Below, one piece after another: positions 27,016 to 48,258 of a DNA stretch of 51,974 bases (the first letter of the stretch is position 1; every line of letters starts with the position of its first letter). This DNA comes from Actinomycetes bacterium. GTDB taxonomy: Bacteria > Actinomycetota > Acidimicrobiia > Acidimicrobiales > Acidimicrobiaceae. A program made the translations under genes and the position numbers. Below the pieces are notes generated by a model. It was not told where the DNA came from. It saw only the letters and a program-made list of their open reading frames with translations, and did no database searches. The stretch covers positions 1-51,974 of the forward strand of contig JAJYHR010000180.1 in the NCBI GenBank assembly GCA_021784675.1, written 5' to 3'.

Positions 27016-27101
27016 TGGTGGGCCGGGAGGGATTCGAACCCCCGTAGGCGTACGCCGGCAGATTTACAGTCTGCTCCCATTGGCCACTCGGGCACCGACC
27101 C
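27016..27101 (-). tRNA. tRNA-Tyr (GTA anticodon)
   Basis: The complement folds as a tRNA. Acceptor GGGTCGG pairs with CCGGCCC (one G-T pair), discriminator A and an encoded CCA follow, the T arm contains GGTTCGAATCC, and the anticodon loop ACTGTAAATC has the anticodon GTA at 27065-27067. The long variable arm (about 13 nt) is expected for class II tRNA-Tyr. Total 86 nt including CCA. Confidence 0.95.
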
Positions 27102-27127: not shown

Positions 27128-27622
27128 ATGCCATCCTTCGACGTAGTCTCGGAAATTGACATGCAAGAAGTGAAAAATGCGGTAGACCAAGCCTCCCGGG
27201 AGCTGGCTACACGCTTCGACTTCAAAGGTACCGGATCGGCAGTCCACCTCTCCGAGAAGGAGAGCACGCTCACCCTGACCTCTTCGACGGAGGATCGGCT
27301 CCGCGCGGCCATGACCGTCCTGGAGGAGCGGCTGGTAAAGCGGTCGATCTCGCTAAAGGTCCTCGATCGCGGCAAGATCGAGGAGGCGGCCAAGGGGACG
27401 GTTCGCCAGGTGGTCAAGCTCGTCTCCGGGCTCGAGGGCGACCGGGCAAAGCAGGTGACCACGGCGATCAAGGGGTCGGCGATCAAGGGAGTGCAGGCCC
27501 AGATCCAGGGAGACCGGGTCCGGCTAACCGCGAAGAAGCGCGACGACCTCCAGAGCGCCATCGCCTACCTCAAAGAGGAGATAACCGACCTCCCGCTGCA
27601 GTACGTGAACTTCCGGGACTGA
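27128..27622 (+). CDS. yajQ: YajQ-family nucleotide-binding protein
   Basis: A 164-residue cytosolic protein of the DUF520/YajQ family. It opens with the canonical MPSFDVVSEIDMQEVKNAVDQASREL and TRFDFKGT, has the middle KVLDRGKIEEAAKGTVRQVVKLVSGLEGDRAKQVT, and closes with a second ferredoxin-like subdomain (IKGVQAQIQGDRVRLTAKKRDDLQSAIAYLKEE) and LPLQYVNFRD, as in other members. Members bind cyclic di-GMP or other nucleotides and RNA; a role in signalling is known in Xanthomonas but not established in actinobacteria. It lies 12 bp before the MprF-like fusion gene, so the two are likely co-transcribed. Confidence 0.93.
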   Translation: MPSFDVVSEIDMQEVKNAVDQASRELATRFDFKGTGSAVHLSEKESTLTLTSSTEDRLRAAMTVLEERLVKRSISLKVLDRGKIEEAAKGTVRQVVKLVSGLEGDRAKQVTTAIKGSAIKGVQAQIQGDRVRLTAKKRDDLQSAIAYLKEEITDLPLQYVNFRD

Positions 27623-27634
27623 CCAGGTTGGCCC

Positions 27635-30493
27635 ATGTCGCTGTTCGGGATCGACCTTGACCTTGTGCCGGGATCCCGAGCGGTCGTGCTGGGAAACCTC
27701 TGGCTCAACAAGGATCGGCCCTCGGAGATCGAGGCGTCCTTCCTCGAGGACGCGACCGGTGACCTGACCGCCGACGACTTCGTGATCGTCCTTGGCAACC
27801 TGCTCGACCCCGAGCAGGATCCCGATGATGCCCGGGAGATGGCCGCCTCCTCCGCTCTCCTCGCGCAGCTGGCATCGATACCCGCGCGCACGGTGATCGT
27901 GCCCGGCGACTCCGACCGGGAGCGGTTCGGAGCGGAAAGCCTTGCAACCGGGCTCGGGGCGGCGGCAACCGTGGCCGGCGCCATCAACCTCCGGTACCAC
28001 TCGGGCGGAAAGCCGGCCAGCCTGCGGCTCGAGGCGGGCACGACGCAAGAGCAGCTGACGGACGCCATAGTCCGCCGGAGCGTGCTCGGCCGCCTTGCCT
28101 CTCAAACCCGGTACCTGCGGGACGCCCTCGACCTCGACCCGAGCGAGCCCATCTCCCGCTACCTGGTATCGCGGACCCTCTACTACCGGATGAGGGCGCT
28201 TGCACCCTGGATCCTGCTCCCGCTGGCGGCGGTGACCGCTATCCGGATCCCGATCCTGCTCACCCTCCCCCTGCTCTCGCACCTCCGCAACTCGCCGGCG
28301 CTTGACCGCGGGAGCCTCATCGCCGTGACCTTCATCCTCGACCTGCTCCTGGTCATTGCCGTCTCCGTCACCACCAGCAGGGCCCTGCTCGGAATCCTCG
28401 ACCAACCGCTCTCCTCGGCCCTTGGCGCCGCCGATCCCAACGCAGCAGACCGCCTCCGGCTGGATGGGTACCTGAGCCAGGGTTACTCCGGCTTGGTCAG
28501 CGGGGCCGGGATGAGCGCCGAGCTCGCGATGATCGGGACGGGAGTGTACGCCTGCCCCGGAGTCTTCCGCGAGACGGTGAGGCCGATCCAGCTGCGCCTG
28601 CCGCTGATGCCGGTCTACCACCGCATCTACGCAGCCACCTGGCTCGAGTTCGAGGGCGGCGCCGAGCTGCGCGTGCGCCTGCACGAGCGCGGCTCCGATC
28701 CGTTCCCGCGGCTGCCTGGGCGGCTCGCCTTCCGCCCGGTGACGGCGATCCGGACCCTTGCCACCCTCCCGGAGGGGCCGGGATGGCCAAGGCTCCAGGG
28801 AGCCGGGGAGAAGAGCACATCGGCCCGGCGCCTGGTCGCCATCATCCTCGCCGTGGCCGGCCTTGCCGAGCTGGTGTCGGCCTTGTTTCCTCCCCTCTCC
28901 CACCACCTGCACCTCATCCGGACGATCATCCCGGAGCTGCCTACCGTTCCCCGCTACGCGGACGCTATCTCGGCGGCAACCGGGGTCGCCCTGATAGCGC
29001 TGGCGGAGGGGCTGCGGCAGGGGCAGCGCCGCTCCTTCCAGATCTCGCTGGCCCTGCTCGCGGTGGCCATCTTCTCAAATCTGGCTGGGCGGTTGCACGT
29101 AGTGGCTACCGCGCTCCTGCTGACGGCGGCCATAGCACTGCTGGTGCGCCGCTCCGCCTTCGACCAGCCGGGAAGCGAACGCCGCCGGATCGCCTCCATC
29201 ATGCGGGTAGCCGCCACCGCGGTCACCCTTCTCGCGGTAGCGACACTGGCCTCCCTGGCCGACCACGTCATGCTCCATCGCGGCGCCCCCTACTCGCTCT
29301 CCCACGCAATCACGTCGATAGCCGGATCTGCGGCCGGGGTCGCCACCGGCGCTCCTCCCCCCTTCGACCAGGGAAAATTCCTGGACGCCCTCACTCTCTC
29401 CGGCCTCGTGCTCCTGGTCGCCCTGGTCTGGTCCCTGCTCGCGCCCTACCGGAAGCTGATCCCCGCCGACCTCCTCGAGCTGCCGCGGGCGCCGGAGGCC
29501 CGCCGCATCCTCGAGCGGTACGCTCAAAGCACCCTCGACTACTTTGCCGTCCGAGAGGACAAGTCGATCCGGATCCGCCACGCCACCCTTATCGCCTACG
29601 GTGACTTCGGCTCTACGGTGATCGTCTCCCCGGACCCCATCGGGCCTCCGGCACGGGCGCGGCACGAGTTTGCCGGGTTCCTCGGCGAGACGACCAGATC
29701 TGGGAGGGCGGTAGCGATCCTCGGAGCGAGCAGCGAGTGGGCGGAGGCCTATCGCGAGCTCAAGATGCGGACCTTCTACATCGGGGACGAGGCTCTGGTA
29801 GCGCTCTCACCGATGGATCTCGCCGGCAAGGCGCACAAGAGCCTGCGGCAGGCGGTGGGCCGAATGACCCGCTACGGGTACACGGTCAGGGTGCTGAATC
29901 CGCTCGATCTCGACGAGTCACGCCGGAACGAGGTGGTGGCGGTGATGCGGGACTCGCGCCGGGGAGATCGGGAGCGGGGCTTCTCGATGACCCTGGGGAG
30001 GATCTTCGACCCCCAGGACACCGACCTGCTGATGAGCGTCTGCACCGGTCCCGATGGCCGGATCTCCGGCTTCTGCCAGTGGGTTCCGGCGCCGGCCGTC
30101 GAGGGGTACTCCCTCGATCTGATGCGCCGTGACCTGCAGAATCACCCCAACGGAATGTTTGACCTGCTCATAGTCGAGACCATCCGGGAACTCCACTCCC
30201 GCGGTTTCAAGCACCTGAGCCTCAACTTCGCCGCCATGAGGGCGGTGCTGGCCAGCACCGGCAACGCCTCCATCGGGGTGAAGGTAGAGCGCTGGATGCT
30301 GGGCCGGCTCTCCGAATCGATGCAGATCGAATCCCTCTGGCGGTTCAACTCCAAGTTCGAACCCGAATGGCAGCCACGATTTCTCGCCGTGGACACCATA
30401 GAGCATCTCCCCCAGGTCGCCCTGGCCGTGGCGCGAGCGGAGTCCCTCTGGGACCTCCCCGTCATCGGCCGCCTGGTCTCCCCCGCGGAGTAG
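27635..30493 (+). CDS. Degenerate metallophosphoesterase fused to an MprF-like membrane and lipid aminoacyltransferase module
   Basis: A 952-residue protein in one uninterrupted frame. Residues about 10-120 and 280-355 read as a calcineurin-like phosphoesterase split by a two-helix membrane insertion (about 186-250), but every metal motif is altered: DLH becomes GNLWL (about 20-24), GDLFD becomes GNLLD (about 54-58), GNHD becomes GDSD (about 91-94) and GHTH becomes GAGM (about 290-293). About six more helices follow at 400-605, then a DUF2156-type phosphatidylglycerol lysyltransferase C-terminal domain (about 620-940) with TLDYFAVREDKSIRIRHATLIAYGDFGSTVIVSPDPIG and KSLRQAVGRMTRYGYTVRVL. MprF proteins add amino acids to membrane phospholipids and flip them, lowering negative surface charge. 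The dead phosphoesterase may be a binding or regulatory domain. Probably co-transcribed with yajQ. Confidence 0.85.
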   Translation: MSLFGIDLDLVPGSRAVVLGNLWLNKDRPSEIEASFLEDATGDLTADDFVIVLGNLLDPEQDPDDAREMAASSALLAQLASIPARTVIVPGDSDRERFGAESLATGLGAAATVAGAINLRYHSGGKPASLRLEAGTTQEQLTDAIVRRSVLGRLASQTRYLRDALDLDPSEPISRYLVSRTLYYRMRALAPWILLPLAAVTAIRIPILLTLPLLSHLRNSPALDRGSLIAVTFILDLLLVIAVSVTTSRALLGILDQPLSSALGAADPNAADRLRLDGYLSQGYSGLVSGAGMSAELAMIGTGVYACPGVFRETVRPIQLRLPLMPVYHRIYAATWLEFEGGAELRVRLHERGSDPFPRLPGRLAFRPVTAIRTLATLPEGPGWPRLQGAGEKSTSARRLVAIILAVAGLAELVSALFPPLSHHLHLIRTIIPELPTVPRYADAISAATGVALIALAEGLRQGQRRSFQISLALLAVAIFSNLAGRLHVVATALLLTAAIALLVRRSAFDQPGSERRRIASIMRVAATAVTLLAVATLASLADHVMLHRGAPYSLSHAITSIAGSAAGVATGAPPPFDQGKFLDALTLSGLVLLVALVWSLLAPYRKLIPADLLELPRAPEARRILERYAQSTLDYFAVREDKSIRIRHATLIAYGDFGSTVIVSPDPIGPPARARHEFAGFLGETTRSGRAVAILGASSEWAEAYRELKMRTFYIGDEALVALSPMDLAGKAHKSLRQAVGRMTRYGYTVRVLNPLDLDESRRNEVVAVMRDSRRGDRERGFSMTLGRIFDPQDTDLLMSVCTGPDGRISGFCQWVPAPAVEGYSLDLMRRDLQNHPNGMFDLLIVETIRELHSRGFKHLSLNFAAMRAVLASTGNASIGVKVERWMLGRLSESMQIESLWRFNSKFEPEWQPRFLAVDTIEHLPQVALAVARAESLWDLPVIGRLVSPAE

Positions 30494-46105: not shown

Positions 46106-47368
46106 GTGAACGGCGACTCCGAGACCGAGATCAGATCTGATGTGACCGTAGTCGGTGGCGGACCGTCGGGAGCGGCCACCGCCTACTGGCTGGCGATGCG
46201 TGGCTTCGACGTAACCGTGGTGGAGAAGAAGATCTTCCCTCGCGACAAGACCTGCGGAGACGGCCTTACTCCGCGCGCGGTGGTCCAGCTTGAGGCGATG
46301 GGCATGGCCGACTTCCTAACGACCCAGCACCGATACGTCGGGCTTAGAGCCGTCGCCTTCGGCCGCAGCTTCGAGATCCCCTGGCCCAAGCACCCGGAGT
46401 TTCCAGAGTACGGGTACGTATCGCGGCGGAGCCTCCTCGATCAGGCGGTCCTAGATCGGGCGCGGGAGGCTGGCGCCCGGGTACTCATGCATCACGAGGC
46501 ACTCTCGGCCGAGACAGGGGCAGGCGGCCTGGCTGCGGTGCTAGCAAAGAACCTCGACACCGGCGAAGTTTGCCGGCTGGTATCCAAGTTCTACGTGCTT
46601 GCCGAAGGTTCGAACGCTCGGGTCTCGAGAAGCCTAGGCGCGGTGAGGAACCCGGGGAAGCCCCTCGGCCTGGCGATCCGCGCCTACCACCCCACCACCC
46701 GGGCGAGCGAGGAGTGGATCGAGTCCCATCTCGAGCTTCGGGACGACTCCGGGGCGATCATCCCCGGCTACGGCTGGATCTTCCCCGCCGGGAACGGCGC
46801 GGCAAACGTCGGCTTCGGGCTGCTCTCCAACCGCTCGCGGTGGCGTAAACTGAACACCACTCGAGAGCTCCAGCGCTTCATCGATGCCACCGACGGGTCC
46901 TGGACCTTCGGGGACGCAGAGTTCCCTGCGACCGGCGGGAAGCTCCCCATGGGCCTAGCCATCTCTCCAATCGCGGGACCCAACCACATAATGGTCGGCG
47001 ACGCCGCAGCCAGTATCAACCCCTTCAACGGGGAGGGCATCTCCTACGCGTACGAGACGGGGCGGCTTGCGGCCGGAATACTGACTCAGGCGCTGGCGAC
47101 CGGGGATGCCTCCATGATCAAGGCCTACCCTGAGCAGCTCCGAGCGCGCTTTGGGCTCTACTACGCCGTGGGAAACGCCTTCGTCCGGCTCATTTCGGAA
47201 CCCAAGCTGATGTCGGCCGGCGTCTGGTCGGCGATGCGGTCGCCCGCGCTGCTGGCGCCGGTAGTGACGGTAATGGCCAACCTGCTGCCCGGGTCCTCGG
47301 CAGCCCAGGTCGAACGGATCTATCGCCTTGCAAACGCCGCCAGAGAGAGGTTCTCCTCCGCGGGTTAG
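46106..47368 (+). CDS. Geranylgeranyl reductase-family FAD oxidoreductase (MenJ-like)
   Basis: A 420-residue flavoprotein. The FAD-binding start SDVTVVGGGPSGAATAYWLAMRGFDVTVVEKKIFPRDKTCGDGLTPRAV is a near-ideal family N-terminus, and the second FAD motif is IMVGDAAASINPFNGEGISYAYETGRLAAG. I chose GTG 46106 because TACGCT lies 7 bases upstream, typical of leaderless actinobacterial messages; the track start is 46067. The family includes MenJ, which saturates one isoprene unit of menaquinone, and archaeal and plant geranylgeranyl reductases. In Streptomyces, a homologue also sits beside nuoA, so menaquinone modification for complex I is the most likely role. Its end overlaps the convergent phosphoesterase by 4 bp. 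Confidence 0.85.
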   Translation: MNGDSETEIRSDVTVVGGGPSGAATAYWLAMRGFDVTVVEKKIFPRDKTCGDGLTPRAVVQLEAMGMADFLTTQHRYVGLRAVAFGRSFEIPWPKHPEFPEYGYVSRRSLLDQAVLDRAREAGARVLMHHEALSAETGAGGLAAVLAKNLDTGEVCRLVSKFYVLAEGSNARVSRSLGAVRNPGKPLGLAIRAYHPTTRASEEWIESHLELRDDSGAIIPGYGWIFPAGNGAANVGFGLLSNRSRWRKLNTTRELQRFIDATDGSWTFGDAEFPATGGKLPMGLAISPIAGPNHIMVGDAAASINPFNGEGISYAYETGRLAAGILTQALATGDASMIKAYPEQLRARFGLYYAVGNAFVRLISEPKLMSAGVWSAMRSPALLAPVVTVMANLLPGSSAAQVERIYRLANAARERFSSAG

Positions 47369-48258
47369 CTGTGGAGGCGGAACTCTTGAAACCGGTGGGC
47401 GAAGCTCACCCTTCCGCGCCAGGTAGAGCTGGGACCCAGGTGGTAGTCGGCAGGGTCCGCCCCACCAAGCTGCTCCCCCTTCCAAAAATAGTCCGGCCCG
47501 GAGCCCGCCACCAGCTCCCAGGAGAGCTGGCCGCCGGCGACTTCAAGAAGCCAGCCACGGCTCGGTCCCGGTCCCAGCGCACCAGCCGAGAACTGAAGGA
47601 TCGTGTCCGACAGCCGCACGACGCTGGCAGCGTGGACGTGACCGCAGAGGTAAGCGATCACGCGCTCGCTCCCGAGCACCAACGACGCCAGCCGGCCGGC
47701 AGCTGGACCGATGAACCCCTCAGAGCCAAAGGTCGCCAGGACGCCATGGTCCCGCACCAAAGAGAGTGGGTAATGCCCGGCCACGATCACCGGAGCCCCC
47801 GGCCGGGAGAGCGCCTCCTCGAGTTCGGCGAGAGCACCATCAGGATCCCGCTCCCTCAATGCGACCGCGATCACCTCGACCTCCCCAACCCGCTTGGAGA
47901 CCACCGGCCCCTGCTCGAACACCCGAGCAAAGTTGGTCCGCGCCCAGTCGACGTTCTCGTAGCGCTCGAGCACCGGAAACTTGAAACCGCGATCGAGGTT
48001 GGCGCCAAGGTCGTGGTTGCCTGGGAGGGCCAGGTAATCGACACCTATTGAATCAAGCCACCGCTTGACCCCGCGCAGCTGCCCCTGGTCCCACGTGCCG
48101 TAGCTGGTGAGATCGCCGGAGACCAGCACCAGGTCGGGGCCAAGCCCGCGGAGCTCTCGCCAAGAGCTGTTCAGAGTCGACGACACCCCGACGTACAGCC
48201 GCTCCGGGCGGGTCTCGAAGTGGAGATCCGATAGGTGAAGAAGGCGCATCCCGTCCAC
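47365..48258 (-). CDS. Metallophosphoesterase (calcineurin-like)
   Basis: A 297-residue soluble enzyme with all metal motifs intact: LSDLHF (Asp11, His13), LVSGDLT (Asp49), LPGNHD (80-83), AGHYP and CGHVH. It should bind two metals and hydrolyse a phosphomono- or diester; the substrate is unknown. It gives a useful contrast with the degenerate phosphoesterase part of the MprF-like fusion at 27.6-30.5 kb. The start is GTG 48258 or ATG 48249; neither has a strong ribosome site. Confidence 0.88.
   Translation of the reverse strand: MDGMRLLHLSDLHFETRPERLYVGVSSTLNSSWRELRGLGPDLVLVSGDLTSYGTWDQGQLRGVKRWLDSIGVDYLALPGNHDLGANLDRGFKFPVLERYENVDWARTNFARVFEQGPVVSKRVGEVEVIAVALRERDPDGALAELEEALSRPGAPVIVAGHYPLSLVRDHGVLATFGSEGFIGPAAGRLASLVLGSERVIAYLCGHVHAASVVRLSDTILQFSAGALGPGPSRGWLLEVAGGQLSWELVAGSGPDYFWKGEQLGGADPADYHLGPSSTWRGRVSFAHRFQEFRLHS

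Follow-up and report, generated by a model that had tools for sequence, protein, structure and literature searches.

What is a domain that resembles a calcineurin-like metallophosphoesterase (MPE), holds none of the metal-binding residues of these enzymes and is fused to a lipid aminoacyltransferase, and why is it kept? The question is raised by a protein of the order Acidimicrobiales encoded in a 51,974-nt stretch of contig JAJYHR010000180.1 (hereafter, the window), for which the closest named record, with 80% identity, is that of a metagenome-assembled 'Actinomycetes bacterium'. The gene, its upstream neighbour and the parts of its product are laid out as follows.

27128..27622, + strand: YajQ/DUF520 neighbour, with its stop 12 bases before the ATG of the fusion
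27635..30493, + strand: whole fusion ORF, 952 aa (ATG start, open frame)
27635..28129, + strand: MPE-like domain, first half, aa 1-165 (homology to MPEs; dN/dS 0.24)
27695..27703, + strand: former DLH motif, now N21-L-W23 (alignment to intact relatives)
27794..27799, + strand: former GD motif, now G54-N55, the glycine invariant (alignment, column entropy)
27905..27916, + strand: former GNHD motif, now G91-D-S-D94 (alignment, column entropy)
28031..28039, + strand: former EHG motif (fifth ligand), now E133-A-G135 (alignment, column entropy)
28130..28420, + strand: two-helix membrane hairpin interrupting the MPE domain, aa 166-262 (hydropathy; dN/dS 0.06)
28421..28714, + strand: MPE-like domain, second half, aa 263-360 (homology; dN/dS)
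28502..28513, + strand: former GHTH motif, now G290-A-G-M293 (alignment to intact relatives)
28829..29443, + strand: six membrane helices, aa ~399-603, equivalent to TM9-14 of MprF (hydropathy; PMC2774229, PMC8131360)
29501..30388, + strand: LPG_synthase_C (PF09924) aminoacyl-phosphatidylglycerol (PG) synthase domain, aa 623-918 (Pfam)

The reading in the earlier note of one frame running through an MPE-like part, a six-helix membrane part and an aminoacyltransferase is borne out by the open ORF, by the PF09924 match and by orthologues from the same genus (80% identity) and the same family, which share the arrangement, each in a single open frame. We infer that yajQ/DUF520 and the fusion gene are probably co-transcribed. 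A tRNA-Tyr gene (27016-27101, - strand) lies beside yajQ, a short way upstream of the fusion, and an NADH dehydrogenase cluster (nuoN/M/L-like) on the opposite strand converges with the fusion ORF. The window also holds a second, canonical metallophosphoesterase gene (47365-48258, - strand; PF00149, 62.6 bits), so the organism has further canonical-looking MPEs.

In the full-length protein, a Pfam scan recovered PF09924 as the sole match and did not find PF00149, so that the MPE domain is invisible to family search; of the two families that the earlier note had named for such a search, only the synthase was thus found (residues 623-918, E 9.5e-56). Direct comparison with relatives was more informative. 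Residues 6-347 match L051, a fused homologue with intact ligands, with a BLASTP E-value of 9e-21 and 28% identity over 372 columns (E 3.0e-15 for the same pair in class- and phylum-level searches), and the N-terminus matches L041 with an E-value of 6e-10. When the ligand-less close family and the stand-alone MPEs were compared as profiles, hhalign returned 98.2% probability (E 3e-14) over 330 columns. Among relatives from the order, PF00149 scores above its cut-off in L041, L044, L051, L057 and L058; in L041, L044 and L051 the PF09924 domain also lies in the same frame, which places the window domain, through its homology to PF00149 proteins, in the calcineurin-like metallophosphoesterase superfamily. 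The alignment to L051 pairs SDLHL with GNLWL, GD with GN, GNHD with GDSD, EHG with EAG and SGHTH with SGAGM. The earlier note had aligned four altered motifs by position and had named intact homologues as what could expose a wrong alignment; such homologues exist, and the motifs are in register with them. The EHG to EAG change at residues 133-135, the fifth ligand motif, had been missed. Structural searches added little: an AlphaFold model of residues 1-378 built on a two-sequence alignment reached a pLDDT of 38.9, the PDB held no match to the profile of the stand-alone MPEs (hmmsearch) or to two single intact relatives, and the A2 profile gave only weak matches to 2yvt (E 0.05) and 2xmo (E 0.66), both solved phosphoesterases. 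Judged by sequence, the N-terminal domain and intact MPEs share a common descent.

The metal-ligand core of MPE enzymes follows the signature D-x-H / GD / GNH[D/E] / H / GHxH (PMC8366450). The window protein departs from it throughout, retaining none of the eight ligand positions (NWNDSAAM in place of DHDNHHHH). Together with the homology to MPEs and dN/dS values well under 1, this agrees with the earlier proposal that every ligand was lost while fold and frame were kept. The MPE domain is present in 72 of 248 genomes of the order, and the survey of homologues that keep or lose the ligands, also proposed earlier, was run on 119 sequences, a few of them representing one and the same gene, and found both classes. 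Approximately 80 sampled fused homologues keep zero to three of the eight ligands, three keep four or five, and only seven rows of fused proteins (L041, L044, L051, L064, L065, L151 and L153) keep seven or eight; both the window protein and its sister in the genus keep none. The ligands are intact in the complete stand-alone MPEs with the hairpin (448-516 aa). Overall, the loss is old and order-wide rather than confined to one odd protein. A few lineages nevertheless hold fused relatives whose ligands are intact, so fusion does not require a dead domain. The bacteria that carry the dead fusion are mostly environmental.

Several unfused or divided forms were encountered in the survey. L038 and L058, candidates for stand-alone MPEs, were rejected because a contig end truncates each of them, as were L040 and L061, whose synthase lies in an overlapping second frame; within the order, L057 alone had no synthase nearby. 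One complete genome of the order (G037) encodes an intact MPE-hairpin protein by itself (L162; 7731-9761, - strand; 677 aa). No synthase was detected in the 12-kb stretch around it, and in the MPE tree L162 is placed next to L051, an intact fusion; the synthase half may have been lost secondarily. In L163 and L164, the MPE and synthase parts occupy two overlapping frames, through either an assembly frameshift or a real division of the fusion. The gene neighbours of stand-alone MPEs, inspected by eye, offered no functional hint.

In the dead homologues, several positions that once held metal ligands rank among the most variable. Their columns for the histidine of DLH, the asparagine and histidine of GNHD and the last histidine of GHTH lie at column-entropy percentiles of 0.69-0.98, and those for G54, G91, D94 and G135 at or below 0.08. 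These homologues have D or N at the DLH aspartate and P, S or A at the histidine of the third motif. Asparagine replaces the GD aspartate in 50 of 80 dead fused members, a swap so frequent that it could preserve a polar contact instead of reflecting free drift. Between two genomes of the same genus, dN/dS is 0.24 for the first MPE part, 0.06 for the hairpin, 0.16 for the second part and 0.10 for the synthase; the hairpin is the most conserved part and the first MPE half, with 69% identity, the fastest evolving. Near-invariant residues, by column entropy, include S179, R180, Y183 and P196 in the hairpin and, across many families, G309, W336, E338 and L349 in the core of the second half. Given the variable former ligand columns, the fixed structural glycines and dN/dS values of 0.06-0.24, the pseudoenzyme domain evolves under purifying selection and is not decaying.

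In the C-terminal half, PF09924 matches residues 623-918 with 189.5 bits against a cut-off of 27.5, and solved MprF proteins align to residues 400-921, covering helices 9-14 and the synthase (borders from PMC8131360). In SaMprF, activity needs K547, K621, E624, D731, R734 and K806, and E685 and D546 are important (PMC2774229). The window synthase keeps D642, K643, E780, D828, R831 and K907, the equivalents of SaMprF D546, K547, E685, D731, R734 and K806, and has Y for K621 and D for E624; the residue at position 621 likewise differs from K in most of the other actinobacterial synthases sampled. Six transmembrane segments and the C-terminal domain of Staphylococcus MprF are enough for Lys-PG synthesis (PMC2774229). 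The corresponding six-helix and synthase module is complete here, with most MprF catalytic residues kept.

Among known systems, the protein shares the six helices (TM9-14) and the PF09924 synthase with MprF, the bifunctional Lys-PG synthase/flippase of Staphylococcus and Rhizobium tropici. By contrast, it lacks the eight-helix flippase subdomain 1 (PF03706) of MprF and has an MPE-like domain with a two-helix hairpin instead, and the NCBIfam MprF model scores 212 bits, far below its cut-off of 600. The best NCBIfam model is that of mycobacterial LysX, yet it too remains below its cut-off (262 versus 742 bits). LysX likewise combines six helices and a synthase with no flippase, and a GDE-type motif at the position of SaMprF K621/E624 is common to many actinobacterial synthases; however, LysX carries a lysyl-tRNA synthetase, whereas the window ORF ends 34 aa after PF09924 and is extended by the N-terminal MPE. 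The N-terminal part is matched in motif order, with the hairpin between EHG and GHTH, by stand-alone hairpin MPEs of other Actinobacteriota (L138-L150, L156, L157), which differ in having all ligands intact and no attached synthase. The two membrane helices described in the earlier note as splitting the domain are indeed present (at about residues 190-210 and 227-247 by hydropathy), but, as the hairpin of the stand-alone relatives shows, such a split is not peculiar to fused proteins. A precedent for an MPE fold that serves as a protein-binding scaffold is the retromer subunit Vps29 (PMC9636581), which is eukaryotic and has neither a membrane hairpin nor a lipid-enzyme fusion, so that the likeness is one of analogy, not membership.

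We consider the protein to be an MprF/LysX-type aminoacyl-PG synthase that has, in place of the flippase half, a catalytically dead membrane-hairpin MPE acting as a platform, and put the probability of this reading at roughly 0.55. Because all metal-holding residues are gone and the domain is nevertheless kept by selection, it probably now serves a structural or regulatory purpose. The synthase of RtMprF swings and docks on cytosolic parts of flippase subdomain 1 (PMC8131360); as this docking subdomain is missing here and its place in the chain is occupied by the MPE-hairpin unit, the dead domain may serve as a docking platform or as a regulator of lipid aminoacylation. Positive-inside counts of loop charges predict that both MPE halves and the synthase are cytosolic, although the topology of MprF-like synthases can differ, as in LysX2 (PMC8974105). 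The MPE halves would then lie on the cytosolic face beside the synthase and would form a platform that docks and positions the mobile synthase domain, as subdomain 1 does in Rhizobium tropici MprF, and that possibly responds to a bound phosphorylated ligand. The synthase would move an amino acid from aminoacyl-tRNA to phosphatidylglycerol, rendering the membrane charge less negative, and flipping, if any, would fall to another protein. Elsewhere in the genome, a single PF03706 (LPG_synthase_TM) protein of ~404 aa is encoded (L161; G000:C64:11690-12592), which could provide flippase activity in trans.

A slightly less probable account, for which we would offer a little short of even odds, holds that the ancestral fusion was bifunctional, with a working phosphoesterase acting on a lipid or on a substrate or product of the synthase, and that this step was lost in the window lineage. 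It draws on the seven fused relatives with seven or eight ligands, three of which (L041, L044, L051) pass the PF00149 cut-off, on the intact complete stand-alone relatives and on the tree of the C-terminal half, a trait-free part, where the six intact fusions included fall in one clade of 11 (SH-aLRT 99) that also holds partly lost and dead fusions. The MPE tree computed without the ligand columns and rooted on stand-alone proteins requires at least six changes between the intact and lost states; both are quick trees with long branches. However, the direction of loss depends on rooting with an outgroup, and such an ancestor would account for the origin of the dead domain but not for its retention; it is compatible with the platform explanation, as its history. 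The idea that fusion itself causes the loss, given that complete stand-alone proteins are intact and fusions mostly dead, was not supported by an independent-pairs test (five pairs, median p 0.5); statistically, the link between loss and fusion cannot be separated from shared ancestry.

Less likely still, yet serious because the hairpin is the best-conserved piece, is that the dead MPE halves are a tolerated remnant with no binding or regulatory role, and that only the hairpin matters, packing on the six-helix bundle. The hairpin is by far the most constrained part, in both its dN/dS and its nearly invariant residues, some members (L010, L135) have lost much of the soluble part, and the rapid divergence of the first MPE half would be expected of a loosely constrained linker no less than of a regulator. 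Against this, dN/dS values of 0.24 and 0.16 indicate clear constraint on the soluble halves, where the structural glycines and the second-half core residues are nearly invariant over many families. Decay of the N-terminal region toward a pseudogene, which the missing ligands and the fast first half might suggest, is very improbable, given that nearly all members have a single open frame, that dN/dS is far below 1 and that many families of the order retain the domain. It is just as hard to believe that there is no MPE domain and that the motifs are alike by chance, despite the missing PF00149 match and the unconfident AlphaFold model, in view of the E-value of 9e-21 to an intact relative with all five motifs in register, the hhalign probability and the graded intermediates in the ligand table.

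More tentatively than the platform reading itself, we suggest for the order as a whole a pseudo-phosphoesterase whose ancestor was a hairpin MPE joined to an aminoacyl-PG synthase. Metal catalysis would have disappeared in most lineages, with some fused relatives remaining intact, and the domain may now control lipid aminoacylation by docking the synthase or by sensing a phospho-ligand, in place of the flippase half of MprF. No paper joining metallophosphoesterase with MprF and lysylphosphatidylglycerol was found in the open-licence PMC literature; a domain-architecture database may list the combination. To our knowledge, bacterial pseudoenzyme domains within lipid-modifying enzymes have been little described. 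The family offers a natural series, from stand-alone intact MPEs through fused intact and fused partly lost forms to fused ligand-free ones, along which the route from phosphatase domain to non-catalytic module can be tested directly; it also bears on lipid aminoacylation without the flippase half of MprF.
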